Positions 1,446-14,395 of a stretch of 21,656 nucleotides of DNA are shown here, piece by piece. Position numbers and translations under genes: made by a program. Under the pieces are notes generated by a model. That model was not told where the DNA came from and ran no database searches. It saw nothing but the letters and a program-made list of their open reading frames with translations. Each line of letters starts with the position of its first letter. The first letter of the stretch is position 1. Source of the DNA: a virus; IMG/VR virus record IMGVR_UViG_3300032053_000608, positions 1 through 21,656 of that record. One strand, written 5' to 3'.

Positions 1446-1475
1446 ATTATACCCTAAAGGGGTTAAAGTGCTTAA
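1446..1475 (-). promoter_or_regulatory. Promoter-like site upstream of the UvsY-like gene
   Basis: Read on the minus strand, a perfect TATAAT lies at 1451-1446, about 20 nt before the start codon at 1424. Upstream there is TTAAGC with an 18-nt spacer, and in between an ACTTT and a CCTTTA block. The same layout occurs upstream of the gene at 14946 (site at 15003-15032). The site sits immediately after the stop of the methyltransferase gene, so it would start a new transcript for the ssDNA-binding group. Confidence 0.5.
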
Positions 1476-3346
1476 AAAAGAAATCCCCTGATTCGCCTGT
1501 CTGAGGGCTGGGAGGTGATTTTGTTTCTTCGCCCTCTGTTCCAAATCCGCTTCTCCGCTATCTCGATGTACTCAGGGTTCAACTCTATCCCTATCCATTT
1601 CCGGTAAAGGTTCTCAGCTACAATGCCGGTAGTGCCTGAGCCAATGAAGGGATCGAGCACAACGGCAGGCACCGTCTTTTCCTCACCACAGGAGCAGGTG
1701 GGCCGCCAGCCGGTAGTTCTTTTTTCTGGATCGCTGCATCGAAGACGAATTCCTCGCTTATCTGTCCCTCGGTCAATGCCATCAAAATCACGTCGCCCGA
1801 TTACCTCGTTCTCCACCACCGGCTCCCAGGGCTTGCCGCACTTCGGGCAGCAGCCCTTCTCACTCGTACCCGCCAGTATGCACCGCTTGACCAGCTCTTG
1901 AGGGAACGTGGCAAAGTGCGCCTCCGGGGTCGGCTCAGTAGCAAACGTCCACACGCTGCGGATATTGCGATTACCTATGGCTGTTCCACATTTGGCTCTG
2001 CCTCCATCGTTCCGGTCACCATTGGCACCGCTTTTACTTGTCATACTTCCACGAAATAGAGTATTTGAACTAGCCTTCTCCCTCACCGCCTCCTGATCGA
2101 AGAAATACTTTGCCGCCTTGGTAAGCAAAAAAATATATTCGTGGCTCTTGGTGGGCCGGTCAGTCACGCTCTCAGGCATGGGGTTGGGCTTCGCCCAGAT
2201 GATGTCAGAGCGCAACCACCAGCCATCTGCCTGAAGCGCCAGGGCAACCATCCAAGGAATAGGCACAAGATCCTTCGGTTTAAACTTGACATCACAGAAC
2301 ATTGTTTGTAAACTATCCTTAATTGAAGAAGGAGGTAACTTATATGCCTTGGAAGAAAGTCCCGTGTCCTGTTTGTGGTAAGAACCTGATTGACAAGCGT
2401 TCAAAGGCTTGTCTCCATTGTTCAGTACCCTATAAACGCACTCAAAATCACCGACAACACCTGAGCGACATACAAAAGGGTCGCAAACACCATTGGAAAT
2501 CCGGCAGTAACCGTCAAGAGGTAGCTCAGAAGATTCGTGAATGGTGGACTCCTGAGAGGAAAGAGGCAAAACGTCAAGAGATGCTTCTTCGGAATCCTGA
2601 AGCCCTATATCATGGCCTTTCTTGCAAAGGGGCCAAGAGGCTTCGTGATGCTCTAGGTCATTGCGAACATTGTGGTCATGATGGTTCTGAAAGTCACCTT
2701 GACGTTCATCACCGGAACGGCAACAAGAAGGATCAATCTCTTGATAATCTGATCGTACTTTGTCATCGTTGCCATATGTTTCAACACCGCCATGAGATCG
2801 GATGGGAGAAATACCATGAACGTATCCGTCTCTTGAAAAACTCTTAGATAACCCTGGATTCGCATGGTGTTCTTTGTGAGCGCCGCCGCTGCCCATGTAA
2901 CTTGATCCCAAATTCACGAAGCACACGCCTGTAGGCTTGAGCACCCGCTTGACCTCGGCAAAGACTTGCACTGTGTGTTTCACGAAAAGCTCCGGGGTCG
3001 GCTCCAGGCCCAGGCTCCCACGCCACGCCCCGCAGCGGAGGCAGAAGGAATGTTCATGTAATTCATGCCAAGACCCTTTATTCGATTCCTGCTTATCGGA
3101 TGGACCACCACTCATTCCATTTCGTTGTTCAGTTTCCCACTCATGCTCACATCCTTCCCGAGCATCCCACACCTGCGGCTCGATCTTGTAATCCCTCAAC
3201 CCCCAATACGGCGGCGAAGTAACCACGCAGTCCACCGAGTCAGCCTCCATACCCTTGAGTACGTCCAGAACATGGCCTTGGAGAATTACTCCAGACTTCA
3301 CTTTACAGCTGACGCTGAAGGGTTCTATTTTCTTGAATGCCTTCAT
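1472..3346 (-). CDS. DNA methyltransferase (beta class, N4-cytosine/N6-adenine type) with a large internal insertion
   Basis: A 624-residue frame; the ATG at 3346 overlaps the polymerase stop (ATGA). Motif IV is TSPPYWGLRDY at about residues 43-53 and motif I is DPFIGSGTTG near 565, followed by WIGIELNPEY. The order IV then I is that of beta-class amino-methyltransferases. The central block PKDLVPIPWMVALALQADGW with SDIIWAKPNPMPESVTDRP is a familiar phage methyltransferase signature. Possible zinc-binding Cys pairs are FCLRC, CCPKC and CSC. It probably methylates an exocyclic amino group at a short site, for self/non-self marking or regulation. Residues about 167-335 coincide with an HNH gene on the other strand. 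In relatives as I recall them, the loop between NLGSSY and PKDLV is far shorter, so most of this segment is inserted sequence and activity is uncertain. Confidence 0.85.
   Translation of the reverse strand: MKAFKKIEPFSVSCKVKSGVILQGHVLDVLKGMEADSVDCVVTSPPYWGLRDYKIEPQVWDAREGCEHEWETEQRNGMSGGPSDKQESNKGSWHELHEHSFCLRCGAWRGSLGLEPTPELFVKHTVQVFAEVKRVLKPTGVCFVNLGSSYMGSGGAHKEHHANPGLSKSFSRDGYVHGISPIRSHGGVETYGNDDKVRSDYQEIDPSCCRSGDERQGDFQNHHDHNVRNDLEHHEASWPLCKKGHDIGLQDSEEASLDVLPLSSQESTIHESSELPLDGYCRISNGVCDPFVCRSGVVGDFECVYRVLNNGDKPLNACQSGSYHKQDTGLSSKAYKLPPSSIKDSLQTMFCDVKFKPKDLVPIPWMVALALQADGWWLRSDIIWAKPNPMPESVTDRPTKSHEYIFLLTKAAKYFFDQEAVREKASSNTLFRGSMTSKSGANGDRNDGGRAKCGTAIGNRNIRSVWTFATEPTPEAHFATFPQELVKRCILAGTSEKGCCPKCGKPWEPVVENEVIGRRDFDGIDRGTDKRGIRLRCSDPEKRTTGWRPTCSCGEEKTVPAVVLDPFIGSGTTGIVAENLYRKWIGIELNPEYIEIAEKRIWNRGRRNKITSQPSDRRIRGFLF
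2286..2314 (+). promoter_or_regulatory. Sigma-70-like promoter for the HNH gene
   Basis: On the plus strand there is a perfect TTGACA at 2286-2291, a 17-nt spacer and TAAACT at 2309-2314. The start codon at 2344 lies 30 nt further on, behind an AAGGAGG site. It is one of very few consensus-like signals pointing rightward in a window otherwise transcribed leftward. The -35 box falls in the conserved methyltransferase coding region, so it may be fortuitous. Confidence 0.4.
2344..2847 (+). CDS. HNH homing endonuclease, encoded antisense inside the methyltransferase gene
   Basis: A 167-residue protein on the plus strand. The ATG at 2344 has a very strong site (AAGGAGGTAACTTAT) at good spacing. 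An N-terminal CPVC...CLHC pair probably binds zinc. A basic NUMOD3-like region (QHLSDIQKGRKHHWKSG) follows. The C-terminal third holds the HNH core: CEHC, then LDVHHRNGNKKDQSLDNLIV, then LCHRCH. Such enzymes nick or cut DNA at an intron-free or insert-free allele to spread themselves. Base composition is visibly more AT-rich than the flanks, which fits recent transfer. Unlike a usual homing gene in an intron or intein, it lies wholly opposite to its host gene's coding strand, and the host frame stays open through it. Confidence 0.88.
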   Translation: MPWKKVPCPVCGKNLIDKRSKACLHCSVPYKRTQNHRQHLSDIQKGRKHHWKSGSNRQEVAQKIREWWTPERKEAKRQEMLLRNPEALYHGLSCKGAKRLRDALGHCEHCGHDGSESHLDVHHRNGNKKDQSLDNLIVLCHRCHMFQHRHEIGWEKYHERIRLLKNS

Positions 3347-5898
3347 GCTTTCACCTTTTCCATCTCCAGCCAGTTCTTCTCCCCTCGCTCCCATTCGACC
3401 TCCAGCGGCACGATCACCCACCTGTTCCTGCGGCGCACGCCCACGGTCATCTCCTCGGTCACCGCCTCCATCACTCGCGCCTGCTCGTTCCGGTGGGCGT
3501 CGAAGAAGATGGCGTCGTGGATCTGCCCTGGCATCTTAGTCACCCAGCTCTCCTTGCGCTTCAGCGGGACCAGGTGGTTGATGGCGTCCATCAGGCAGTG
3601 GTAGGCAGGCCCCTGTATGTGGCTGTTGAAGATGGTGTTGCGGTTGAGGTAGCCGTGGCGCCGGAAGCCCCACCCGATCATCTCGATGTAGCCCAGCCGC
3701 TTGTACTGGGTCACGGCCTCCTCCTGCCTCTGCCGCACGCCCTTGAACATGTCCCAGAAGGCCCCGTCGCACCCGCGCACGTGGCGCTCCCAGCGCTCCC
3801 ACTGGGGCCAGTCCTTCTTCCAGTCTTCTGGCATGTACTCCCAGAGGTTCCTCGCCGTGTTCTTCCAGTAGCTGCCATAGAAATTCGGGAACACGAAGCC
3901 GTTCTTGCCCCCGTAGCGCAGGCGCTTCCACAGCGCCTTGTCCACTTGCCCCTCCGTGACTCCGTAGATCTTCGTAGCCCAATGGCCGTGCATATCATAG
4001 CCGCTCAGGATGAAGTCGATGAGCGTGGGGTCGCGGCTCCAGCAAGCCAGTATCCTCACTTCCATCCCGCTGTAGTCCACCTCTAGGATGACATAGCCCT
4101 CACGCGGTATGACGAGCATCCGTATCAGCGCCCCCTCCTCATCGCGCTTGGGGACGTTCTGGAAGTTGGGCTCGGTGCTAGTGCTGCGGTAACTTCTGGC
4201 AATGTCCAGGTTGAACGCCGGGTACAGGTAGCCGTCCACCTGGAGGGAGTCCCAGTTCTCCAGCACGCCGAGGCGCTTGAGCACCTTGCGCGCCTTGAGT
4301 TCGTGTGACAGGAACTCGCACTTGTCCGCCAGCCCGCTCAGGTATGCCTCATCCATCACGGCGCTGCGTGGCACCCCCACGACCTCCGTCAGCAGGGTGG
4401 TGAGGTCGTCGCGGCTGATCTGTTTCTTGTACTCCACGGGGCGCCCCTTCAGCTGCGCGAACTTGCGCCCCTCCTCGCTCGCGAGCACGGCCTCCCTGAG
4501 TCGCGCGAACTCCGCGCCCCACTCCCCCTTGTACTTGTGGAGCAGCGCCATGTCGAGCCGGATGCCCTCCTGCTGCATGTGGGCGAAACTCTCAGCCCCG
4601 CGGTGCAGCAGCTCATAGGCTCGGCTCAGGCCCTTGGCCTCAACCTCCTTGCGCTGGAGCTTGCAGAGGCGGGCGGTGTTTTCTACGTCCTTCGCGTTGT
4701 ACTCCGCCACGCGCTCCAGCGGCTCCGCGTCCATCTTATTAAGCTGCTTCGGATCGGCAGAAATAACAGAGTCTGGTAGCCCGTAGTTCGGGATGCCCAG
4801 GCGCAGGTAGCTCTGCTCCTTCAGGCCATTGACCTTGGGCGCCTCGTCCTGGACGCGGTTGCCCATCTTGGTGTCCCACCACCAGTTTTCGGTATCCACC
4901 CCCAGGAAGAACTTCGTGCAGAGATGCTCGTGTGTGAGGTGCTGCGCCACCTTGGGGACTCTCGCGTCCGCCATCATCGCCCGCAGGGTCAGTTTCAGCA
5001 CGCCCAACTGCTCGGCGTCCCAATAGGGTCCGCCTGTCTCCAGGTCGGTCTTCTCCAGCGGGATAACGTACACCACGTCCTCGTCTAGTACCTGCAGCCC
5101 GACGGTGTAGACCTTGTGAATCTTCTCGTGGTAGCGGTAGCTGCTCGTCTCGTAGTCGATCACGATGGGGATGCCGCCCCAGCCCTTCTCGCCGTGCAGG
5201 CGGGCGATCACGCTCCTGGCCTGGATGAAGTCGGTGACCACCTCGCGCCTCACGCTCTTGCCCCCGATCTTCGGGGCGCTCTTGAACCTGGCGACAAGCG
5301 CCACGTCGCGCTCGAACACGTGCCGCTTGTCGTCGTTGCCGCGCAGGATGAAGGCCGGGTGGTAGGTGTGGCAGATCCAGGCGCTCGCCGCATAGTCAGG
5401 CACAGCCTTACCGCGTAGGCTCATTACGGTCAGATCCATCCAGGAGCGCTCCGGGTCGCAACGGTAGAAGCTGTCCACCGCGTAGTCCCCGATCAGCAGG
5501 ATCACGCTGGGCTTCAGCTCCCCCAGCGCCTTGCGCTTGCGCTCCCAGCAGCACCGCAGCTGTACCAGGGTGGGCTTCTTGTTGCCGGGGATGTGGCAGT
5601 CTACGGAGTTCACCAGCCAGCAGTCCAGGTCCATGTTCACCCCGGCCAGGGCCAGGGTCTTCCTCAACAGCTCGCCGCTCGGTCCGCAGAAGGGCCTCCC
5701 GGCCTTGTCCTCCTCCTCGCCGGGACCCTCGCCCCACAGGAGGATCTTGCGCCGCCCCTCGCCGAAGAGGGCGATCTTTGGGGAGTGGATGTCCGCGTTG
5801 GAGAGGCCACACAGGGTGCAATCGTAGACCTTGGCAGACTTAGCCTTTGGCTTGGAGAGCGGCTTGCTTGGCGGTTGTGCTTCAAAGAAGCCCCTCAT
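3343..5898 (-). CDS. Family A DNA polymerase with N-terminal uracil-DNA-glycosylase domain and 3'-5' exonuclease
   Basis: An 851-residue replicative polymerase. Residues about 25-205 are a family 4/5-like uracil-DNA glycosylase: GEGPGEEEDKAGRPF (56-70), NSVDCHIPGNKKPT (97-110) and HPAFIL (180-185). Cys27, 30, 101 and 117 match the C-x2-C...C-x14-17-C pattern that holds a 4Fe-4S cluster. Residues about 240-415 are the proofreading exonuclease (DYET at 249, YNAKD at 400-404). Polymerase motif A is EVDYSG around Asp608. Motif B is the R-x3-K...YG block at 661-675, and motif C is QIHDAIFFD at 792-800. Motif C has Ala where Pol I has Glu after HD, but the catalytic Asp remains. A glycosylase-like N-terminus is known in the polymerase of phage SPO1, whose DNA contains hydroxymethyluracil. 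The gene starts 1 nt after the clamp loader stop and overlaps the methyltransferase start. Confidence 0.93.
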   Translation of the reverse strand: MRGFFEAQPPSKPLSKPKAKSAKVYDCTLCGLSNADIHSPKIALFGEGRRKILLWGEGPGEEEDKAGRPFCGPSGELLRKTLALAGVNMDLDCWLVNSVDCHIPGNKKPTLVQLRCCWERKRKALGELKPSVILLIGDYAVDSFYRCDPERSWMDLTVMSLRGKAVPDYAASAWICHTYHPAFILRGNDDKRHVFERDVALVARFKSAPKIGGKSVRREVVTDFIQARSVIARLHGEKGWGGIPIVIDYETSSYRYHEKIHKVYTVGLQVLDEDVVYVIPLEKTDLETGGPYWDAEQLGVLKLTLRAMMADARVPKVAQHLTHEHLCTKFFLGVDTENWWWDTKMGNRVQDEAPKVNGLKEQSYLRLGIPNYGLPDSVISADPKQLNKMDAEPLERVAEYNAKDVENTARLCKLQRKEVEAKGLSRAYELLHRGAESFAHMQQEGIRLDMALLHKYKGEWGAEFARLREAVLASEEGRKFAQLKGRPVEYKKQISRDDLTTLLTEVVGVPRSAVMDEAYLSGLADKCEFLSHELKARKVLKRLGVLENWDSLQVDGYLYPAFNLDIARSYRSTSTEPNFQNVPKRDEEGALIRMLVIPREGYVILEVDYSGMEVRILACWSRDPTLIDFILSGYDMHGHWATKIYGVTEGQVDKALWKRLRYGGKNGFVFPNFYGSYWKNTARNLWEYMPEDWKKDWPQWERWERHVRGCDGAFWDMFKGVRQRQEEAVTQYKRLGYIEMIGWGFRRHGYLNRNTIFNSHIQGPAYHCLMDAINHLVPLKRKESWVTKMPGQIHDAIFFDAHRNEQARVMEAVTEEMTVGVRRRNRWVIVPLEVEWERGEKNWLEMEKVKA

Positions 5899-5899
5899 T

Positions 5900-6805
5900 T
5901 CATTTCACCATCATCGCCTTCATCACGAGGCAGGTCAGTCCCGCCCGCCCGCTGTCGTACAGGTTGTCCATGAAGATCTCCAACAGCACCGTGAGCTTCG
6001 GGTTCAGGGCGCTTCCGCTCATCGCCACGCTGCTCATGTAGCCGAGTATGGCGCGGCGGCTCCCCTCGGCGTCGTCGTCCAGGGCGCGGAGTATCTTCGC
6101 GGCGTCGGGCCACTTGCCTCCCCTCATCATGAGGGCGCAGAGGTCCCTCACTCCCGCGTCCGCCGTCCCCCGCTCCACCAGCTCCAGCGCCTCAGCCACC
6201 GTGAGCCCTTGAACCTGCTCCAGCAGCACCAGGGCCTCGCGCGGCACCCCGGCGCTTTGCTCGCACACCGCCGCCAGCACCTCCGCTGGGGTGCCCAGCC
6301 CTTCCGCCTTGTCCACCCACGCGAGCAGGTCCAGCATGGAGCGCCTGTTAAGCGGCTTCACCTGGAACTGCGTGGCGCGGGAGCGGATGGTGGGGACCAC
6401 CTTGTTATAGTCCGTCGTGCAGAACACGAAGAACGCGAAGGCCGGGGGCTCCTCCAACACCTTGAGCCACACGTCTTGCGCCTCGGGGGTCAGGCGGTGG
6501 CACTCGTCGATGATGTAGAGTTTTTTAGTCCCGGAGATGGGGTGCTTGTAAATACCGGACTTCAATTGTCTGGAAGCATCTATGCCACGTGTACTGGCCG
6601 CGTCCACTTCAATCAGGTCGAACGGGTCCACCGCCAGCGCTTGCGCTATCAGCCGGGCGAGGGTGGTCTTGCCGCACCCCCTTGTCCCGTGAAGGAGGTA
6701 GAAGTGGGCCGTGCCGATGGTCTTCTTCAGTGAGGCCACGAGGGTCTTATTGCCCCGCACCTCGTCAAAGGTCGGTGGGCGGTACTTCCTATAAAGTTGT
6801 TCCAT
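5900..6805 (-). CDS. Sliding clamp loader ATPase (DnaX/RFC-small-like)
   Basis: A 301-residue AAA+ protein. I chose the ATG at 6805 because the protein then begins MEQLYRKYRPPTFDEV, the classic N-terminus of clamp loader subunits; a GGGGG site lies upstream. Walker A is GTRGCGKTT (40-48), Walker B IIDECH (98-103), sensor 1 CTTD (129-132) and the SRC-like motif IRSRA (140-144). It opens the sliding clamp and loads it at primer ends using ATP. The zinc-binding Cys module that bacterial DnaX carries after Walker A is absent, and there is no tau-type C-terminal extension. It lies between the clamp and the polymerase, the natural partners. No second loader subunit is visible in this window. Confidence 0.9.
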   Translation of the reverse strand: MEQLYRKYRPPTFDEVRGNKTLVASLKKTIGTAHFYLLHGTRGCGKTTLARLIAQALAVDPFDLIEVDAASTRGIDASRQLKSGIYKHPISGTKKLYIIDECHRLTPEAQDVWLKVLEEPPAFAFFVFCTTDYNKVVPTIRSRATQFQVKPLNRRSMLDLLAWVDKAEGLGTPAEVLAAVCEQSAGVPREALVLLEQVQGLTVAEALELVERGTADAGVRDLCALMMRGGKWPDAAKILRALDDDAEGSRRAILGYMSSVAMSGSALNPKLTVLLEIFMDNLYDSGRAGLTCLVMKAMMVK

Positions 6806-6824
6806 ATTATCGCAGCCCCCGTGC

Positions 6825-7895
6825 CTAGAAAGAGATGAGGTGTTTGAAGTTGCTTCCCTCAAAGAGCATCTTGCCCTCCCCAGCCAGGTAGGACTTCCCC
6901 TCATATTTCAATACCCAAGACAGGAACGCTGGGTTGATGGCGATCTCAAAGCGGTTCACCTGGTCGTTGAACTCCACGTGTTCCTCGTACCATTCATTTT
7001 CCGTTTCGGACCTACAATACAATCCGTCCCCTTTGGAAAATAGCTTCACGGTGCGATCATAAAAAGATTGCTCCTTGCCCAGCACCAAGGAGTTTTCCAG
7101 CGTGGTAGTGAAGGTCTTGGGTATGGTGAACTGTTGAGCGGCGGTCACCTTCTTAGGGAAGAAGCCTTTGGCCGCTTCGGCGGGGAACTCTTCCGCTAAG
7201 GGCATTAGCAACAGGCTGTGGTACAACGCCCCACCCCGGAAGTGAAGCCAACCGTCCTCCACTGCGTACTCTTCACAAGGGTGGTTGGACACTTGTAGGT
7301 ATTCATGAGCCGGTATCAGTAGGGGGCCGCCAGGGAAATCAGCAGGTAAGGTGAACCAGCTGATCCGCAAGTTATCAGACGCTAACAGGTCCCGCCCTCT
7401 CACTAGCACGCCCAGGAGGTAGGGCTTGGTGGCGTCCTGTGAGGCGCAGTAGCTACAAAAGGTCAGCCCCTCCCGGAACCCTTCGGGCACCCGCCGCCAT
7501 TTCATATCCGCATAGGGCAGCGCTTCCAAGCGCCGTATCAGCGCCTCGTCCTGGCCCCCGAGTTTTATCCCAAACGATTGCCGCCCGCCGCTCACCACCA
7601 GTTGGTCGGCGTCCGGGCGTATGGTGAGCTTATCTGCTTTCATTTTGCCCAACAGTGCTAGGAGCTTCTCCCCTTCCACACTCCCCTCCACCCCAATAGG
7701 GAATTCACATTGAATAGCCACTTCCCGATTGAACGCGGCCACGCGGTCTCCCATCAATAGGTAACTGCCCGCGTACTCCGCATTGCTGAGGCCCGGTTGA
7801 AGGCGCTTGAGCACCTCCAAGAGTTCACCCCGGTCTATTGTACCATCTTCCTTTTCCACTTCAATCCGTTGCTGTTTTTTACCCTTGCCCGTCAT
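6825..7895 (-). CDS. DNA polymerase sliding clamp (DnaN-like)
   Basis: A 356-residue protein with three successive regions of similar beta-rich pattern, each about 115 residues, as in the bacterial beta clamp. Region 1 contains LLMGDRVAAFNREVAIQCEF and EGEKLLALLGKMKADKLTI. Region 2 contains LLGVLVRGRDLLASDNLRIS. Region 3 contains IAINPAFLSWVLKY, like the 'NP.yL...L' segment of DnaN. The ATG at 7895 follows AAAGGAGGACTCATTC. The clamp rings DNA and tethers the polymerase. It lies directly upstream of the loader. The sequence is well diverged from cellular DnaN, so the call relies on the fold pattern and context. Confidence 0.72.
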   Translation of the reverse strand: MTGKGKKQQRIEVEKEDGTIDRGELLEVLKRLQPGLSNAEYAGSYLLMGDRVAAFNREVAIQCEFPIGVEGSVEGEKLLALLGKMKADKLTIRPDADQLVVSGGRQSFGIKLGGQDEALIRRLEALPYADMKWRRVPEGFREGLTFCSYCASQDATKPYLLGVLVRGRDLLASDNLRISWFTLPADFPGGPLLIPAHEYLQVSNHPCEEYAVEDGWLHFRGGALYHSLLLMPLAEEFPAEAAKGFFPKKVTAAQQFTIPKTFTTTLENSLVLGKEQSFYDRTVKLFSKGDGLYCRSETENEWYEEHVEFNDQVNRFEIAINPAFLSWVLKYEGKSYLAGEGKMLFEGSNFKHLISF

Positions 7896-7919: not shown

Positions 7920-9431
7920 TTATTTGTTTGGAATGCCCTTGAACTGTTTGTCGAAGTCTGGGTGCCACTTGCGATACTCGTAGACCAAATCGCCGCTCTG
8001 GGGGTCCTTGCCTACGGGGGTCATTGTACCTTTGAAGTAAACGTAGGGGCTGCGGGGGTGACGCGGTGCGTTCCACTTGTTACGCATAACGTCCCCAAAG
8101 GTTTGCCCCTTCCTAGACCTATAGCCCTTCCAATTGCCTTGGGCGATCATTTTGTGAGCTTCCACCGCATGTGCCCATTCCGGAGCCCAATCTCTATAAG
8201 TGACCCGGAGGGGCTGCCCTTGCTCATGGGCCCGGTGAAGGTCCACTATCACCTGGGTGAGCTGGCGGCGGCTATAATTTCCAAACCACGGGTCATTGGG
8301 TTGGATACCGCAACAGCTACCCGTGTCATTGTATTCCTTGAAATGGGGGTCGCTGATTCCAAAGGTCATCCCCAACGCGTGAACCCGCTCGCGCACCGCC
8401 ATGGTGATGTCGAACTTCAAGTTGCGGCTCGCCCGACGGCAGCTTTCCTTGAGGTTGCTATGGCTGTTCCACCATTCTCCAAAGCGTGGATTGTCTTGGA
8501 TCTGGAACATGTGATGGTACATGATCTTCTGACGCGTGGTCAACGCTGAATTCAGGAACACAAATTCAAAGCTCACCGCCTGCGCCCCGGCCTCCGCCGC
8601 TTTATCCAATAGCACCTTCCAACCCTCACCCTTGGGCGCGCGTTTGTGGTAGTCGCTTATCCCGAACAGGAAGGGCCGAAAGCGCAAACTCACCGGGTGC
8701 CCTGCCGCGCTGTACGCCTTCATTGCTTTCAAGCGGGCCGTGGCGTTGGGTGCAGCCACGTCCACTGCTTCCAGTTTGGCGTCGTCCGCCGTGATAATGC
8801 TAAAGGCAAACCAGAACTGCGCCGGGTCGTATTGCCCGAACAAGTCCCGGTACGCCTTCAACATCATGACTCGCGCCCCCTTAGTGCTTATGCGAACTGG
8901 TTGGCGGTGCTCCGCGAACAAAGGCACCGCCCGCTTCATCCACCCGCTCACCTCTTCCAAGTCATCGAAGGGGTCCCCCAATGTGCCCAACTGGATGGGT
9001 AGCCGCTGGTCCAGCAAGGCGTACATAGCTCGCGCCACAGGATTCTCCAGCTCCCGATTCAAGAACTTAGCCAGCCGCTCCACCGCCCACTCACCGTACA
9101 AGTTGAGGCGCTTGCCCTCGACCAGGTGCCGCATCTTATCCGGGTTGCGGTCTGTAGCCCGGTTCAGGTTATTACTGAAGCAATACAAGCACCCGAAGCT
9201 ACACCCACTGTGGCTGTCCATAGAGATCGGTAAGCTGCAATCCATAGCGTCACTAGTGAAGCGCACTCCATCATACTGGGTATTCATAGGTTCCGTTAGC
9301 AAGCGGCGGCGCTTATCGGGGTCCGTCATATAAGCCAGACAACGATCCCCTTCACACCCGCCCATCGCGCGCAAGTTGCAACCCCGGCAAACGTAATGTA
9401 ATTTTTTCAGTGCTCCTTTATCAGCGTCCAT
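7920..9431 (-). CDS. Radical SAM protein 1, SPL-like, with extra N-terminal Cys cluster
   Basis: A 503-residue protein. I chose the ATG at 9431 (MDADKGALKK), just after the upstream stop. The radical SAM 4Fe-4S motif is CSFGCLYC (Cys77, 81, 84), preceded by LPISMDSHSG as in spore-photoproduct-lyase-like enzymes. An extra set Cys15, 18, 26, 31 (CRGC...C....C) could hold a second metal centre. A paired Cys motif GSCCGIQ lies at 373-374, also found in the two other radical SAM proteins of the cassette. These enzymes cleave S-adenosylmethionine to make a 5'-deoxyadenosyl radical. The SPL branch acts on a thymine dimer in DNA, while other branches have unknown substrates. A DNA base as substrate here is inference. 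It is the cassette member closest to the sliding clamp. Confidence 0.85.
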   Translation of the reverse strand: MDADKGALKKLHYVCRGCNLRAMGGCEGDRCLAYMTDPDKRRRLLTEPMNTQYDGVRFTSDAMDCSLPISMDSHSGCSFGCLYCFSNNLNRATDRNPDKMRHLVEGKRLNLYGEWAVERLAKFLNRELENPVARAMYALLDQRLPIQLGTLGDPFDDLEEVSGWMKRAVPLFAEHRQPVRISTKGARVMMLKAYRDLFGQYDPAQFWFAFSIITADDAKLEAVDVAAPNATARLKAMKAYSAAGHPVSLRFRPFLFGISDYHKRAPKGEGWKVLLDKAAEAGAQAVSFEFVFLNSALTTRQKIMYHHMFQIQDNPRFGEWWNSHSNLKESCRRASRNLKFDITMAVRERVHALGMTFGISDPHFKEYNDTGSCCGIQPNDPWFGNYSRRQLTQVIVDLHRAHEQGQPLRVTYRDWAPEWAHAVEAHKMIAQGNWKGYRSRKGQTFGDVMRNKWNAPRHPRSPYVYFKGTMTPVGKDPQSGDLVYEYRKWHPDFDKQFKGIPNK

Positions 9432-9433
9432 AT

Positions 9434-9703
9434 TTATTCTACCCCCGTCAATAAGCTCAGCAACTTGTCCGTGTTCATCCAAGGGGCGGCCTTACCCCGG
9501 CCTTTCACTTCCAGCGCCCTGACCACCCGGTCATAGTCCGCCTCACTATCAAAGTAGAACACTACGAACTTGCGCTTTCCACGGTTGGTCTCATCAGCCT
9601 TTTGGTCCTCCGGAAAGCAGAACAGCCCCGGCGCGGTGTCCAGCTTTTTATTAGCACTTATGGAATAGCTCAACTCGTCTTTGTGGCTCCGCTTCTTACC
9701 CAT
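9434..9703 (-). CDS. Small unknown protein of the radical SAM cassette
   Basis: An 89-residue protein with a strong GGGAGGTAAAAGG site. It overlaps the acyltransferase-like gene by 34 nt and ends just before radical SAM gene 1. The N-terminus is basic. The second half reads KFVVFYFDSEADYDRVVRAL and ends PWMNTDKLLSLL. A strand followed by a helix starting 'F.sEaDYdR' is reminiscent of the small C-terminal domain attached to some ParB-like proteins in phages and mobile elements; I cannot confirm this. It could be an accessory or partner subunit of the flanking enzymes. Confidence 0.62.
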   Translation of the reverse strand: MGKKRSHKDELSYSISANKKLDTAPGLFCFPEDQKADETNRGKRKFVVFYFDSEADYDRVVRALEVKGRGKAAPWMNTDKLLSLLTGVE

Positions 9704-10506
9704 CCTTTTACCTCCCTGACCCTTGTGGGGTTCAATTTGTCTTTGAAAAATTTTAGTCGCTCACTCCCAAGGGTCCCCCCGTCATTAACGGGCTTGTGCT
9801 TGGAGAGTATAGCGGCGTCCGTATAGAATAGCCATCTCATGTACTCACTTAGGAACGGCTCCCCCCGGCATACGCAAAACCGGAAGTTCACGTAACAGTA
9901 GTTCTCGTCCCACACGTTCACGCCCCACAAGCCCCCCGCAGCATCGAACAGGGCCTTGCGGTGGTTGCCATTCAGAACATAGTCCAATAGCAAGTCCCCG
10001 TCGTGTATCTCGGCGTCCGCCCCCTTTGCCTCCAACCATTCCACCAGTAGCGCTGTCAGCGCCTCTGGCGCTTGTTCTGGGGCCAATTCCACATAGCTCA
10101 GTTCCCGCCCGGCCCGCGCCGGAAACTTGCGGGCGTTCTTACGGAACGTCATCCACCGGCCCCCCTCCATTTTTAGGAAGGCCCTTGGTTCATAGATATA
10201 CTCCCAATCCAAAAAGCTCGCCACCCCGCCCGTTGGGGCGAACCCCGCCACGTCACTCCAAAGGTCAGCCGGGAACTCCTCCGGCCATTGGAACTCTCCA
10301 CCCCCCGTCAACGGGGGCAACACCAGCTGCTCCCCGTCAAACACCCCACATATATCCCCCGCCTGGGTGTAGCGTTCTGTGAAGCCCGCGCGCCGGGCGT
10401 ACTCCTCGGAACACCAGAAATTAGGTCGCCACCCGCCCCGCTCCAACCTTTTTAAGTACTCTAGCACCGCCCCCGCCTCACCATGCCTGGCCAACGCTTT
10501 GCACAC
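9670..10506 (-). CDS. DUF2156/GNAT-fold acyltransferase-like protein
   Basis: A 278-residue protein beginning at GTG 10506, about 17 nt after the stop of the upstream small gene; the ribosome binding site is weak, so the start is uncertain. Residues about 96-125 (DWEYIYEPRAFLKMEGGRW, then FRKNARKF) resemble the 'YlYd.e.L..l.Gr....KrN...F' signature of the DUF2156 family. The end (VNDGGTLGSERLKFFKDKLN, then P) resembles that family's closing 'N....LG..gLr..K..l.P' motif. Relatives have the GNAT fold and include the tRNA-dependent lysyltransferase domain of MprF and FemX-like enzymes. This suggests transfer of an acyl or aminoacyl group. In this cassette the acceptor could be a nucleobase made reactive by the radical SAM enzymes, which is inference only. 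Confidence 0.55.
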   Translation of the reverse strand: MCKALARHGEAGAVLEYLKRLERGGWRPNFWCSEEYARRAGFTERYTQAGDICGVFDGEQLVLPPLTGGGEFQWPEEFPADLWSDVAGFAPTGGVASFLDWEYIYEPRAFLKMEGGRWMTFRKNARKFPARAGRELSYVELAPEQAPEALTALLVEWLEAKGADAEIHDGDLLLDYVLNGNHRKALFDAAGGLWGVNVWDENYCYVNFRFCVCRGEPFLSEYMRWLFYTDAAILSKHKPVNDGGTLGSERLKFFKDKLNPTRVREVKGWVRSGATKTS

Positions 10507-10522
10507 GCCCTGCTGTCAGGGC

Positions 10523-10681
10523 CTACATACCCAGCCCCTTGCCTTTTAGTGGGATGTTAGAGGTCGATTTTCTGCAGCCCTTTTTGGGCTTGGCCACCCC
10601 GGTCACCGCCACCGCCCCCTCTTTCAACCGCTGTATCAAGCGCTTTGACACGCCCCCGCTTTTCCTGCTTTTGCCGCCCAT
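10523..10681 (-). CDS. Small basic protein
   Basis: A 52-residue, Lys/Arg-rich protein (MGGKSRKSGGVSKRLIQRLK start; KPKKGCRKS in the middle) with ATG at 10681 behind AAGGGGGTGATAAGG. Its first 125 nt overlap the 3' end of the upstream gene in another frame. The composition suggests nucleic-acid binding, but there is no recognisable fold. I judge this frame real because it has a good start site and the overlapping frame reads as low-complexity tail. Confidence 0.5.
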   Translation of the reverse strand: MGGKSRKSGGVSKRLIQRLKEGAVAVTGVAKPKKGCRKSTSNIPLKGKGLGM

Positions 10682-11432
10682 GATCCTTATCACCCCCTTC
10701 TGCGTTCGCCTCACCCAGCTCCCCCAGTTCACCCAACTCGTCGTAGAGACAAGTGGTCACCATGCCGCTCATCCGAAGCTTGTCGTTCTGAATCCAAGAA
10801 TAGAACGGGTCCACAAAGTAAAAGTCCAGCGCCCCTTCTTTCAGTGCCTCCACAAAGTCCAACAGGGCCTTGATGTCCGAGGTACGGTAGCCCCTGAAGC
10901 TCCAATCGCCCTCCACTTTAAACAGCCCCAAGCGCCCCGCCTTGGGCCACGCTTTTATCAACCGCCCCGAATACAGGTCACGTTGAACTATGAAGAAGGA
11001 CCCGCCCCGCGCCCCAAACTCTACATGGGACAACCCCTCCTCCAGGTGTTCAAATACCAACCCCTTACTCAGGGTCACGCGGTTCGTGAGTCGCTTGGGC
11101 GTGTACTTGTGGTACAAGGTTTGAACCTCGGCGAAGGTGGTCTCCGGCACCCGGCTCAAAATCTTAGCGTCTGACACCTTGCCCTTGTTGTGAAACACTA
11201 TGCCGTTGCTGACCATCTCCAGCTCATTGCTGGAGTAGTCATTAGCGAAGAAGCGCACCTCCTCAGGGAAGGCTTTACCCGCTTCAAACCGCACCAGCAC
11301 CGTGTGATCAGTGTTGGCCACGAACATGGTATCCCCCTTACAATACACGGCGTTACTGAAGCGCCCGCCCGCATGGAGCCCTGCGGCAATAGCGAAGTGT
11401 GCCTCATCGTGATCTGAAATTTTGATTATCAT
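10557..11432 (-). CDS. Unknown beta-rich protein in the radical SAM cassette (possibly clamp-like)
   Basis: A 291-residue frame. The ATG at 11432 overlaps the radical SAM 2 stop (ATGA) and follows GGGGAGAGGAACT. Residues 1-245 look like an alternating strand/helix protein: MIIKISDHDEAHFAIAAGLH, LEMVSNGIVFHNKGK, VTLSKGLVFEHLEEGLSHVE and FGARGGSFFIVQRDLYSG. The pattern recalls sliding clamps but lacks any diagnostic motif. A GELGELGELGE repeat follows. The last 45 residues (from about GGDKDHG) are Gly/Lys/Arg-rich and coincide with the small basic gene in another frame. One extra G in the G5 run at 10693-10697 would bring a TGA TAA double stop into frame, so the tail may be an artefact or a genuine frame device. 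Confidence 0.65.
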   Translation of the reverse strand: MIIKISDHDEAHFAIAAGLHAGGRFSNAVYCKGDTMFVANTDHTVLVRFEAGKAFPEEVRFFANDYSSNELEMVSNGIVFHNKGKVSDAKILSRVPETTFAEVQTLYHKYTPKRLTNRVTLSKGLVFEHLEEGLSHVEFGARGGSFFIVQRDLYSGRLIKAWPKAGRLGLFKVEGDWSFRGYRTSDIKALLDFVEALKEGALDFYFVDPFYSWIQNDKLRMSGMVTTCLYDELGELGELGEANAEGGDKDHGRQKQEKRGRVKALDTAVERGGGGGDRGGQAQKGLQKIDL

Positions 11433-12856
11433 AGTTCCTCTCCCCTCATAAGGGCTGTTAGCATTTGTTCTCGAAAGTCCCCCGTCCCAGTACTGTAGCT
11501 CCACACCATCATGCCGTCTTGATCGGGGCCATGTGGCTTGAACCCTGGGATCCAATCCATCTGGTACCCGTTGCGCTCTTCCAGGTTCCACAGCCGTTGA
11601 ACAGCGGTCTGAATAGTGGTGGATAAGAAGCCGCCCCCCTCGCCAACCCAAGTGGCAAAGTCCCGCCACCGGGCGCGTGCCCCCTTCTGGCGTATGACCC
11701 AGCGGGCCGCCGTGAGTATGTTGCCCCTGTTGTAGCCCCCGGCCAAGAACTGAGAGTCCACAGAACAACAAAGGTCACTGTCGTTGCTCGGTACATTTCC
11801 AAAGTCAAACGTACTACACGAGAATCCCCGCTCCCGAAAGTGATCCATGAAGCGCCCCAATATCAGGCTCCCCAACCACTGACAATCACTCATGATCAAG
11901 AACATACGTCGAAAGTCCAACCCCACGCGGAAGTACCCCTCCTCAATGCCCGGATTGTTCGCAGAGTAACTGTAGGTGTCAAAGGTCAAGTGCTTCACCC
12001 CGGCCCATTTCAACCGCTCAATGTAGTGGTCCGTGTCGGCTCGGTCGTCGTTTATAAAAGCCATGAAGGGTTCTATGCGCGCCACCACCTTGACCCCGGC
12101 TTGGATGAGGGCGCGACACGCTTCCAGCCGCTGCTCAAAGCTGGGTGCCCCACTTTCCAAACGCCGCCTCAAGGGCTCACTACCTGTGATCATGGTCAAG
12201 TGAACAGCGGCCCCAGCCTTGTTGTCCGCCAGCGCCCGCACGTAATCCTCACGCCCAACCAGGGCCGACTTAGTGTTAATCATCACCGGGTAGGCCTCCG
12301 CAGCCAAGTACCGCAACAGCGCCAAGCTCACTTGGTCCCGGCCCTCGCGGGCTATGAAGTCCTCGAACCGTATCCCAAAGCGCATAGGCACTTCCATAGC
12401 AACGGCGCGCGCTGTCTCATTACCCGCTTGGGTCAGGCGGCCCCGGTTGGTGAATAGCCGGTCCAACTCACGCTTGAAGAAGTCTGGGTTACAATGCCTC
12501 AAGCCCATGAGCCGCGCATTGTCGAAGAAGCTGGAGTACAAGGACGCCCTGAAACAATTGGCGTAGCAATAGATACAATTGTAGGGGCAGGTGAACCCGT
12601 CCCACGTGTCTATGTTCAAGGGCAGGGGGCACGCTTGCGCCCGCAAGCTCACCTCCAGGAAGCTGTTCATCTCCTCTGTGTTGAGCAAGCGCTCCTTGCG
12701 AAGGTGCTCCCCCCGGAACAAGTCCCCCTCCTGGTAGTTGCGCTTGCGGCCCTTCTCCTCCACCAACCCCCGCCGCTCATAATCACTCGTCCGGCTCCAT
12801 CGCACCGACCGGGGCACCAGGTCCTTTACCACCGTTCGTAAATCCCAGTAATTCAT
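11429..12856 (-). CDS. Radical SAM protein 2, SPL-like
   Basis: A 475-residue protein. The ATG at 12856 is 1 nt after the upstream stop. The radical SAM motif is CPYNCIYC (Cys90, 94, 97), preceded by PLPLNIDTWDGF, closely matching the layout in the two sister proteins. The AMEVPMRFGIRFEDF and VMINTKSALVGREDY segments fit the TIM-barrel strands that bind the cluster and SAM. A paired-Cys motif SDLCCSV (363-364) corresponds to the CCG motif of the sisters. An 80-residue N-terminal extension with a basic stretch (EEKGRKRNYQ) precedes the barrel. The substrate is unknown. Sequence divergence from radical SAM 1 and 3 suggests three different reactions or subunits rather than recent duplication. 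Confidence 0.85.
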   Translation of the reverse strand: MNYWDLRTVVKDLVPRSVRWSRTSDYERRGLVEEKGRKRNYQEGDLFRGEHLRKERLLNTEEMNSFLEVSLRAQACPLPLNIDTWDGFTCPYNCIYCYANCFRASLYSSFFDNARLMGLRHCNPDFFKRELDRLFTNRGRLTQAGNETARAVAMEVPMRFGIRFEDFIAREGRDQVSLALLRYLAAEAYPVMINTKSALVGREDYVRALADNKAGAAVHLTMITGSEPLRRRLESGAPSFEQRLEACRALIQAGVKVVARIEPFMAFINDDRADTDHYIERLKWAGVKHLTFDTYSYSANNPGIEEGYFRVGLDFRRMFLIMSDCQWLGSLILGRFMDHFRERGFSCSTFDFGNVPSNDSDLCCSVDSQFLAGGYNRGNILTAARWVIRQKGARARWRDFATWVGEGGGFLSTTIQTAVQRLWNLEERNGYQMDWIPGFKPHGPDQDGMMVWSYSTGTGDFREQMLTALMRGEEL

Positions 12857-12857
12857 A

Positions 12858-13307
12858 TCACAACCCCAATTGTCCTTTCAATAACACGGTGTTCACGAAA
12901 TGGGAATTGTTAAAGATGAAAGTCTCCAATCCCACTTCAATCACCTTTGGTGAAAAGGAATACTGATAGTCCCCCTGGCGCTTCACCCTATCCAGAACGC
13001 CGATCAGGGTCAGCTTGGTTAGCAAGTGCTCCATAGTGGTGTCTGTCTGAGTCCCGGTGGCCTTGCCCCCAATAGTACCAGGCCATCGGGCGTTGATCGC
13101 GGTGGCCAAGTCTCGCACCCCAAAGGCTTGCTCGGGGTACTCCTTAAATAGGTCCGTCAAGATCAGCAACGAGGGCTTCACTGCCCCGTCACAATGTATT
13201 ATTGGGTCCGCCGCGTCACTAACAACTGCCATTGGGTCCTCTGCTCGTATCTGTTGAACCCGCACCTTCAAACACCATTCGGAGCAGTCGTCATATTTCT
13301 TCTTCAT
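12858..13307 (-). CDS. Small protein of the radical SAM cassette, possibly winged-helix
   Basis: A 149-residue protein. Its ATG at 13307 overlaps the stop of radical SAM 3 (ATGA), and radical SAM 2 begins 1 nt after its stop, so the three are translationally linked. The middle has the helical pattern LLILTDLFKEYPEQAFGVRD then LATAINARW, followed by TMEHLLTKLTLIGVLDRVKR and GDYQYSFSP. That spacing resembles a winged-helix domain with a beta hairpin wing. It could bind DNA for the flanking enzymes or regulate the cassette. No family is recognised with certainty. Confidence 0.65.
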   Translation of the reverse strand: MKKKYDDCSEWCLKVRVQQIRAEDPMAVVSDAADPIIHCDGAVKPSLLILTDLFKEYPEQAFGVRDLATAINARWPGTIGGKATGTQTDTTMEHLLTKLTLIGVLDRVKRQGDYQYSFSPKVIEVGLETFIFNNSHFVNTVLLKGQLGL

Positions 13308-14395
13308 AGTCCCAAACGCCCCCTGTTGTTGGTGGGCTTTGCCCCGGCGGCGAAGTCCCCCCAGGAATAGAGGTCTGTGGGCCCCCGGCCTTCCAAGAGC
13401 GCCCGCCCCAATTCATAATCCCCCACCCCATCCCAAGACTTGTCCAAGTCCTCCAAAGTGAAGCTGCCCCCGCCCGCCATCCACTGCTCTTTCCACTTGA
13501 TGAAGTTGAAGGTGGTGGGGTTCCTTACGTCCACGCCACAACAGGTGTTGGCGGGGTTTTGGTACTGACCGGAGTTGATGAAGTCTGGACACCCCAATTT
13601 CACCCCGCGCCGCCGCGCTATATCCAACAGTTCTAATAGCTGTGGGCGCCACGCGGTGTCTTGGTTCAAGGTCCACACCCGCTCAATGTCCAGCCCCGGC
13701 ACTTGGGCAAGGCGCTTGGCCACAAAGGCGTTGAGGCGCAGGTTGTATACATTGTACCGGGTCACCCCGGCGGCCTTGATGCGGCGCAACACCGCGTCGA
13801 AGTCCTGCGCCGTGTTCCAGCCGGGAATGAATGGCTCTCCAATGAAGCCCACCTGCAACCCATGGGCACAAAAAAAACGGGCCGCCTCGATGCGTGATTG
13901 CACCGGGGCGACCCGTTTATTTTCCAACAACTCCCAATCCCGCTCCATACCACAAGACAGTGAAATGGTTATCACCGCTTTCATCCGCACCAACAAGTCC
14001 GAGCACTCTTGTAGCCAGTGGGTGTACTTGGTCTCAACCTTCACTTCCCAATTCAGCGGGGCCAACAGCTCCAACGCCCGCCGCGTACAATGATGGATTC
14101 CTTCGGCGGGTTGGAAGGGGTCGCTCTTGTTGCCCAAGCGCAGCGTCTTGCGTTGCCGCAAGGCCTGACTCAAGGGGGACTTGGAGTGTGGCGAACTCTT
14201 CAACCCCCGCTCCAACTCCCGCTCGAAATGCTCCATATCCAACGGGCGGAAGTCCGCCCCCCAGACCGCGTTCAGCTGTCTACAAAAACAATAAACACAA
14301 TCGGCCTCACAATTGTAGTAGGTGTCCAGCCCCAAGGCCAGGGGACAGTACAGACTGTCCCCCCGAATTGTGAGGCCCTGTTTCAGGCGCTTCAT
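13304..14395 (-). CDS. Radical SAM protein 3, SPL-like
   Basis: A 363-residue protein, the shortest of the three. I chose the ATG at 14395, which overlaps the upstream TGA; an in-frame TTG lies one codon earlier. The radical SAM motif is CEADCVYC (Cys29, 33, 36) close to the N-terminus, preceded by PLALGLDTYYN, the same lead-in as in radical SAM 2. KTLRLGNKSDPFQPAE and WEVKVETKYTHWLQE match the barrel strand motifs of SPL-like proteins. The paired-Cys motif is NTCCGVD (285-286). It is the first enzyme translated in the cassette. The substrate is unknown; DNA is suggested by the SPL-like family and neighbouring replication genes. Confidence 0.85.
   Translation of the reverse strand: MKRLKQGLTIRGDSLYCPLALGLDTYYNCEADCVYCFCRQLNAVWGADFRPLDMEHFERELERGLKSSPHSKSPLSQALRQRKTLRLGNKSDPFQPAEGIHHCTRRALELLAPLNWEVKVETKYTHWLQECSDLLVRMKAVITISLSCGMERDWELLENKRVAPVQSRIEAARFFCAHGLQVGFIGEPFIPGWNTAQDFDAVLRRIKAAGVTRYNVYNLRLNAFVAKRLAQVPGLDIERVWTLNQDTAWRPQLLELLDIARRRGVKLGCPDFINSGQYQNPANTCCGVDVRNPTTFNFIKWKEQWMAGGGSFTLEDLDKSWDGVGDYELGRALLEGRGPTDLYSWGDFAAGAKPTNNRGRLGL

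Follow-up and report, generated by a model that had tools for sequence, protein, structure and literature searches.

What is a set of radical S-adenosylmethionine (radical SAM) enzymes doing inside the replication operon of a phage? The question is raised by a 21,656-base IMG/VR record (IMGVR_UViG_3300032053_000608; the whole stretch is called the window here), which is classed as linear and may be a fragment, and whose minus strand carries every gene of the finding. An earlier note, made from the sequence alone, had described an eight-gene cassette of three radical SAM proteins and companions beside the replisome genes, with DNA as the probable target; we judge the latter idea to be supported. 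We propose, with a probability of about 0.55, that the conserved part of this cassette serves an uncultured group of tailed phages as a machine for modifying DNA bases in step with replication. It consists of five genes: the radical SAM genes rSAM-A (13304..14395; 363 amino acids) and rSAM-B (11429..12856; 475 amino acids), a second sliding-clamp gene, clamp-2 (10557..11432), a gene for a small basic peptide, sb (10523..10681), and a gene for a DUF2156/LPG_synthase_C-type tandem-GNAT protein (9670..10506). These five recur jointly in tens of divergent contigs, far above chance.

A profile made from two rSAM-B sequences retrieved 32 viral contigs, a set that further scanning with profiles of rSAM-A and rSAM-B enlarged to 86, of which 83 come from IMG/VR and 3 are small contigs in metagenome-assembled genome bins labelled Thioalkalivibrio, Bacteroidota and Bacillota. 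Many of the 86 are partial and some rows are near-identical, so that they do not represent 86 independent events; with this in mind, rSAM-B was matched in 83 contigs, clamp-2 in 76, rSAM-A in 75, sb in 72, the DUF2156 gene in 71 and the DnaN-like clamp in 68. The usual order is DnaB helicase, a low-complexity protein, rSAM-A, a variable slot, rSAM-B, clamp-2, sb, DUF2156, the DnaN-like clamp, UDG/exonuclease with PolA, and the clamp loader. The linkage to the replisome pointed out earlier is thus tight, the core set lying between DnaB and the clamp/UDG/PolA genes across the 86 contigs. The ATGA-type overlaps and short gaps between module genes are also as described, and the rSAM-A ATG overlaps the stop of the gene upstream. 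Of the eight genes originally grouped together, only the five named above form the conserved core; rSAM-C, P0007 and P0002 are rare. Likewise, a survey of the three radical SAM clades shows that A and B co-occur widely, but that C is found in one other contig only. In the contig with the most distant rSAM-B member (L168; 36% identity), clamp-2 follows rSAM-B directly, and these are the only two of the five core genes found there; rSAM-A, sb and the GNAT gene were not. Because one long contig carries tailed-phage portal and tail genes, we take the hosts to be bacteria, and the viruses carrying the module are apparently dozens of uncultured phages.

Two components that the earlier note had overlooked are the most distinctive parts of the module. 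One is the product of clamp-2, previously listed as a beta-rich protein of no known type, which by its model has a sliding-clamp fold. The AlphaFold2 model, built on 24 homologues, has a mean predicted local distance difference test (pLDDT) score of 79, with 143 residues at or above 90 and low confidence from residue 232 onward. Residues 1-231 match chains of PCNA and of the RAD9-HUS1-RAD1 (9-1-1) complex with Z scores of 15-16.9 (RAD9 16.9, PCNA about 16), and viral structures concur. The predicted clamp fold extends over the whole ordered chain in two domains, and on this model clamp-2 belongs to the PCNA/9-1-1-type sliding clamps. Since the neighbouring 356-residue protein (6825..7895), the DnaN-like clamp, matches phage processivity factors (PHROG 947, E 5e-18), two clamps are encoded close together. 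When clamp-2 alone served as the seed of a scan, 49 contigs were returned and every one was already in the rSAM-B set; the search patterns came from close members, and more distant homologues may therefore exist elsewhere.

The other is sb, a basic peptide of 52 amino acids (MGGKSRKSGGVSK..., with the C-terminus KGKGLGM), which begins at 10681 with MGGKSRK and overlaps the clamp-2 gene in a different frame. In the first set, its homologues at 23 further loci have MGGKSRK.GG.SK.LI in common (residue 1 being M or V) and differ in their tails, most of which finish in a short hydrophobic motif such as PLFD, GLGF, GFF or GLF. GGKSRK is invariant in 59/59 distinct sb sequences, and an S and an L further on are nearly so. 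We used a degenerate DNA pattern of the sb start to search all of IMG/VR without regard to neighbouring genes: 75 contigs matched, and all 75 matches lie in the module. Of these contigs, 66 belong to the rSAM-B set; every one of them has rSAM-B and clamp-2, and 64 have DUF2156. The remaining nine have DUF2156, the clamp and/or clamp-2 beside sb. We considered whether sb is a spurious reading frame produced by the overlap with clamp-2 and rejected this, as its N-terminus is the most conserved stretch in the module. The GGKSRK peptide is therefore also a handy marker for locating the module.

The DUF2156 protein was previously called DUF2156/GNAT-like and acyltransferase-like, and its predicted fold bears out a DUF2156/GNAT transferase. 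The model (pLDDT 92.7) is closest to 2hqy (Z 22.3), followed by MprF-type structures (14.8-16.8), the aminoacyl-tRNA-dependent peptide synthase Sbb17 (13.6) and FemX (13.3). By sequence, PF09924 matches weakly, at E<=0.1 in 11 of 24 members with a best value of 1e-6, and leaves the window copy unmatched; from its fold, the protein belongs to the DUF2156/LPG_synthase_C tandem-GNAT group. The modelled fold is that of aminoacyl-tRNA-dependent transferases, so that use of an aminoacyl-tRNA would be plausible, a common fold being no proof of it.

A short terminal motif (GLLF, GFLF or GFF) is found at the C-termini of rSAM-A and of DNA methyltransferases and, in a related form, at the N-terminus of a UDG/polymerase subunit. 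In the first set it was observed at 14 C-termini against 0.58 expected, an enrichment that is post hoc because the motif was noticed after inspecting the C-termini. In contigs that had not been used to pick the motif, its strict form stands on 4 of 42 rSAM-A proteins (0.0 expected) and on no other profile-matched family, the methyltransferases being outside the families covered. When proteins were counted irrespective of family over the old and the new contigs together, 21 of 1226 had the motif against 2.0 expected, the carriers being chiefly rSAM-A and DNA methyltransferases, among them the window methyltransferase (RIRGFLF). The window rSAM-A ends in RGRLGL, which resembles the motif and fails its strict form. 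At the N-terminus, the UDG/exonuclease subunit starts with a GFF-type motif, G[FLMI][FLMI], in 49 of 59 contigs (MRGFF in the window). That the tail motif itself is common at protein N-termini was rejected, with 0 or 1 observed where 0.55 or 1.29 were expected; the GFF of the UDG subunit is a related form. The motif recalls bacterial clamp-binding peptides of the QxxLF type, and its presence on both rSAM-A and DNA methyltransferases makes the idea of a clamp tether testable with peptides.

As for the enzymes themselves, translation and alignment bear out the description of three radical SAM proteins with a common lead-in and a late CC: rSAM-A, rSAM-B and rSAM-C all have CX3CX2C, a cysteine-containing lead-in, C-x-(L/I)-x...D...C, and the late CC, and an alignment of the three with one homologue has 35 invariant columns. 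Membership in the radical SAM superfamily is indicated by CX3CX2C in all three and by matches to curated radical SAM families at E 1e-10 to 1e-19. With PF04055 (Radical_SAM), rSAM-B scores 30.1 bits (cut-off 29.5), and rSAM-A (19 bits) and rSAM-C fall below the gathering score. The closest families are PA0069 and Rv2578c (E<=0.001 for each of the 24 rSAM-B members); the window proteins reach 40.6-68.5 bits on these NCBIfam profiles (rSAM-A 68.5 on PA0069), against cut-offs of 360 and 430, and so lie outside the families proper. The label of spore photoproduct lyase-like does not hold in the strict sense, as the scores are 8.6-13.2 bits (bests 12.7 and 13.2) against cut-offs of 400 (TIGR04070) and 437.55 (TIGR03886). 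PHROG 9252, a photolyase-named group, matches the family weakly. The rSAM-B protein is the most conserved enzyme of the module, with 46-56% identity between the window copy and 23 relatives. A sequence search of the PDB with the radical SAM profiles matched no chain, and PADLOC gave no match for any of the three. In a tblastn search of a phage collection, rSAM-A, rSAM-B and the GNAT gene were without relatives, and rSAM-C had one 26% match, which sits in an unrelated prophage-like context.

The three radical SAM proteins had been taken for paralogues in one operon, but a recent triplication is ruled out by the tree, in which A, B and C form three separate, well-supported deep clades. The rSAM-C clade (the window protein and one from contig L110) joins Sphingomonas and acidobacterium proteins (98/88), the long cellular branches being unsure in position. 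The rSAM-C gene (7920..9431) encodes an optional third enzyme with extra N-terminal cysteines; its probable start is an ATG at ~9431, and a TTG at 9482 opens the longest open reading frame (ORF). A close-relative scan of viral contigs with rSAM-C gave no match, and the only orthologue surfaced later, in L110 (E 1e-167), at the same position before the clamp. Because L110 has a P0007 homologue (116 amino acids) directly upstream of this orthologue, rSAM-C and P0007 (9434..9703; 89 amino acids) appear to be an optional pair. In Sphingomonas sp. QA11 (L060, 5632-17240), a cellular radical SAM protein with the same cysteine lead-in and CC is encoded two genes from a PALP homologue (E 1e-12 with the profile of the phage pyridoxal phosphate (PLP) enzymes), and a putative membrane protein, a nucleoside deoxyribosyltransferase-like gene, a reverse transcriptase-associated SbcB-like exonuclease and Wadjet JetD lie nearby in a defence-island-like setting. 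A further relative of this protein is encoded in L177 (6184-8137; 36% identity; the genome is of the same class), immediately after a gene for a putative membrane protein.

Between rSAM-A and rSAM-B lies the variable slot. It is empty in 11 contigs (less than about 100 bases between the two genes) and elsewhere holds a PLP fold-II enzyme, c13, an aldo-keto reductase, a flavin adenine dinucleotide (FAD) oxidoreductase-like protein, a second GNAT or others; Pfam backs the PALP, aldo-keto reductase and DUF362 labels, and the FAD label was read from sequence only. Eleven contigs have DUF362 genes, which in the three that were mapped (L007, L012 and L014) stand just before rSAM-A, outside the slot. 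In the window the slot holds P0002 (12858..13307; 149 amino acids), which has a single clear homologue (L017) and no match in a Pfam search; its earlier label as a possible winged-helix protein was not confirmed. One contig (L284, 7814-9603) has two extra genes in the interval from DUF2156 to the clamp. One is for a queuosine-precursor transporter (TIGR00697, above cut-off), the other for a protein that ends in RGFLL, is without a match in Pfam or NCBIfam and has a DSGAFSAW motif recalling phage 7-deazaguanine transglycosylases. Inteins interrupt rSAM-B directly before its cluster-binding cysteines in L036 (8730-11128), L157 (7742-11128) and L159 (8665-11143), at the first or third cysteine and in L157 at both, and apparently also rSAM-A of L157 (2560-3741), again directly before a cluster-binding cysteine. 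For some of these inteins the two halves are encoded by different ORFs (separated in L157 by an endonuclease-like ORF), which suggests split inteins.

Downstream of the module, the window encodes a clamp loader AAA subunit (5900..6904; Pfam DNA_pol3_delta2, E 2e-22), a UDG-DNA polymerase A fusion (3343..5898; PF03167 and PF00476, both above cut-off) and an N6/N4 DNA methyltransferase (1472..3421; PF01555, E 3e-43). UDG and PolA form one ORF here, whereas many relatives have UDG/exonuclease and polymerase as separate genes. Within the methyltransferase gene, the opposite strand has an ORF (2323-2847, plus) that resembles an HNH endonuclease.

Taking these observations together, we suggest the following scheme. 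The rSAM-A and rSAM-B enzymes, with rSAM-C as an add-on, would carry out radical C-H chemistry on bases of newly made DNA; the DUF2156 protein would add an amino acid or another acyl group to their product; and the variable PLP, aldo-keto reductase, FAD, DUF362 and second GNAT genes could tailor the final group. The PCNA-like clamp-2, sb and the terminal GLLF/GFLF/GFF-type tails may keep these enzymes on DNA behind the polymerase. The order of the reactions, like the role of DNA as substrate and the binding of the motif to a clamp, is what we infer. Action on DNA at the fork is favoured by the gene order, the second clamp, the variable tailoring genes and the tail motif that DNA methyltransferases and, in related form, a polymerase-associated subunit also carry. 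The adjacency of rSAM-B and clamp-2 in L168, the DUF2156 fold and the two genes inserted in L284 also speak for the scheme. Several points weigh against this proposal. Neither the chemistry nor modified DNA has been observed; we know of no substrate for PA0069 or Rv2578c, the closest radical SAM profiles; and the tblastn search of the phage collection found no cultured phage with the module. The tail would bind a clamp by resemblance to other peptides, many rSAM-A proteins are without it, and the strict motif is on only 4 of the 42 new ones. Linkage to replication genes by itself leaves the substrate unfixed, and the invariant N-terminus of sb would equally fit a peptide that is modified.

Indeed, sb might be a precursor that the radical SAM enzymes and the DUF2156 protein modify, the product docking on the clamp and regulating replication or host functions. 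Its invariant start, near-invariant S and L and variable tail would suit such a role, a radical SAM enzyme with an aminoacyl-tRNA-dependent ligase and a small peptide recalls in general terms peptide-scaffold pathways, and the Sbb17 match of the DUF2156 model points the same way. We nevertheless consider it unlikely: a second sliding clamp would be superfluous in a peptide pathway, the tail motif of rSAM-A is common to DNA methyltransferases, L168 has rSAM-B and clamp-2 with no sb detected, and peptide-maturase models gave no consistent match (one AlbA match among 24). Clamp-guided repair, in which the radical SAM enzymes reverse or process photoproducts or other lesions during replication, with clamp-2 acting like 9-1-1 and the UDG domain as a partner, seems to us quite unlikely. 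It draws on the weak PHROG 9252 match, on the structural nearness of clamp-2 to RAD9/HUS1/RAD1 and PCNA and on the UDG domain of the polymerase, but the spore photoproduct lyase models are far under their cut-offs, and repair does not readily explain an aminoacyl-transferase fold or the variable PLP, aldo-keto reductase, FAD and DUF362 genes.

Least probable, in our estimation, is that the substrate of the radical SAM and accessory enzymes is RNA, a nucleotide or a host metabolite, and that their genes stand near the replication genes only through shared early expression. The accessory genes do vary, and rSAM-C relatives include the cellular protein whose gene shares a defence-like island with those for PALP and a nucleoside deoxyribosyltransferase; against this, the gene order persists across divergent contigs, rSAM-B adjoins clamp-2 even in L168, and the terminal motif links the module to DNA methyltransferases and, in related form, to a polymerase-associated subunit. 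Within base modification of DNA, which we prefer, the module could, more tentatively, represent a hitherto undescribed class, spread over many uncultured phages: a dedicated PCNA-like clamp and a 50-residue adaptor peptide would tether radical SAM enzymes acting on polymeric DNA, and an aminoacyl-tRNA-dependent transferase would supply the group. If DNA is the target, the route to modified DNA would be built on radical chemistry and tethering to a clamp instead of modified nucleotides or stand-alone transferases, and there would be a specific task for a phage's second sliding clamp. Whatever the substrate, a near-constant five-gene set in the replication region of many phages calls for explanation.

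The literature searched, with subscription papers and preprints outside its scope, offered no description of a phage module that joins radical SAM enzymes to a clamp. The earlier note regarded three radical SAM paralogues in one compact phage operon as unusual; several such genes in one phage are not new, since the Campylobacter phages CP220 and CPt10 have 11 and 12 per genome (PMC2853527), and the phage collection gave no tblastn match to rSAM-A or rSAM-B. Phages M6, ViI and phiW-14, which hypermodify thymidine from 5-hydroxymethyldeoxyuridine (5hmdU), likewise combine replication genes of their own with clusters of several modification enzymes (PMC6449724). Unlike that pathway, the present module has a second clamp, an invariant peptide and DUF2156, and thymidine hypermodification, to which the earlier note had also pointed, is not indicated: a ThyA-type gene (for the dUMP hydroxymethylase) was found in 2 of 12 contigs and the helical domain of the 5hmdU DNA kinase (HMUDK_hel) in 0 of 21, where the control was silent too and the contigs may be incomplete. 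The PA0069/Rv2578c enzymes (NF033668, NF038135), of the wider spore-photoproduct-lyase-like group, have the same CX3CX2C core and are the best curated matches of A, B and C, but the cysteine lead-in and late CC of the window proteins were not seen in several cellular relatives compared. The C-terminal domain of MprF/LPG synthase and FemX have the same tandem-GNAT fold as the DUF2156 model (Z 13-17); the module protein differs in being phage-encoded and placed inside a replication operon. Finally, PCNA and RAD9-HUS1-RAD1 have the same predicted two-domain clamp fold as clamp-2 (Z 15-17), which is set apart from them as a virus-encoded, second clamp next to a radical SAM gene.

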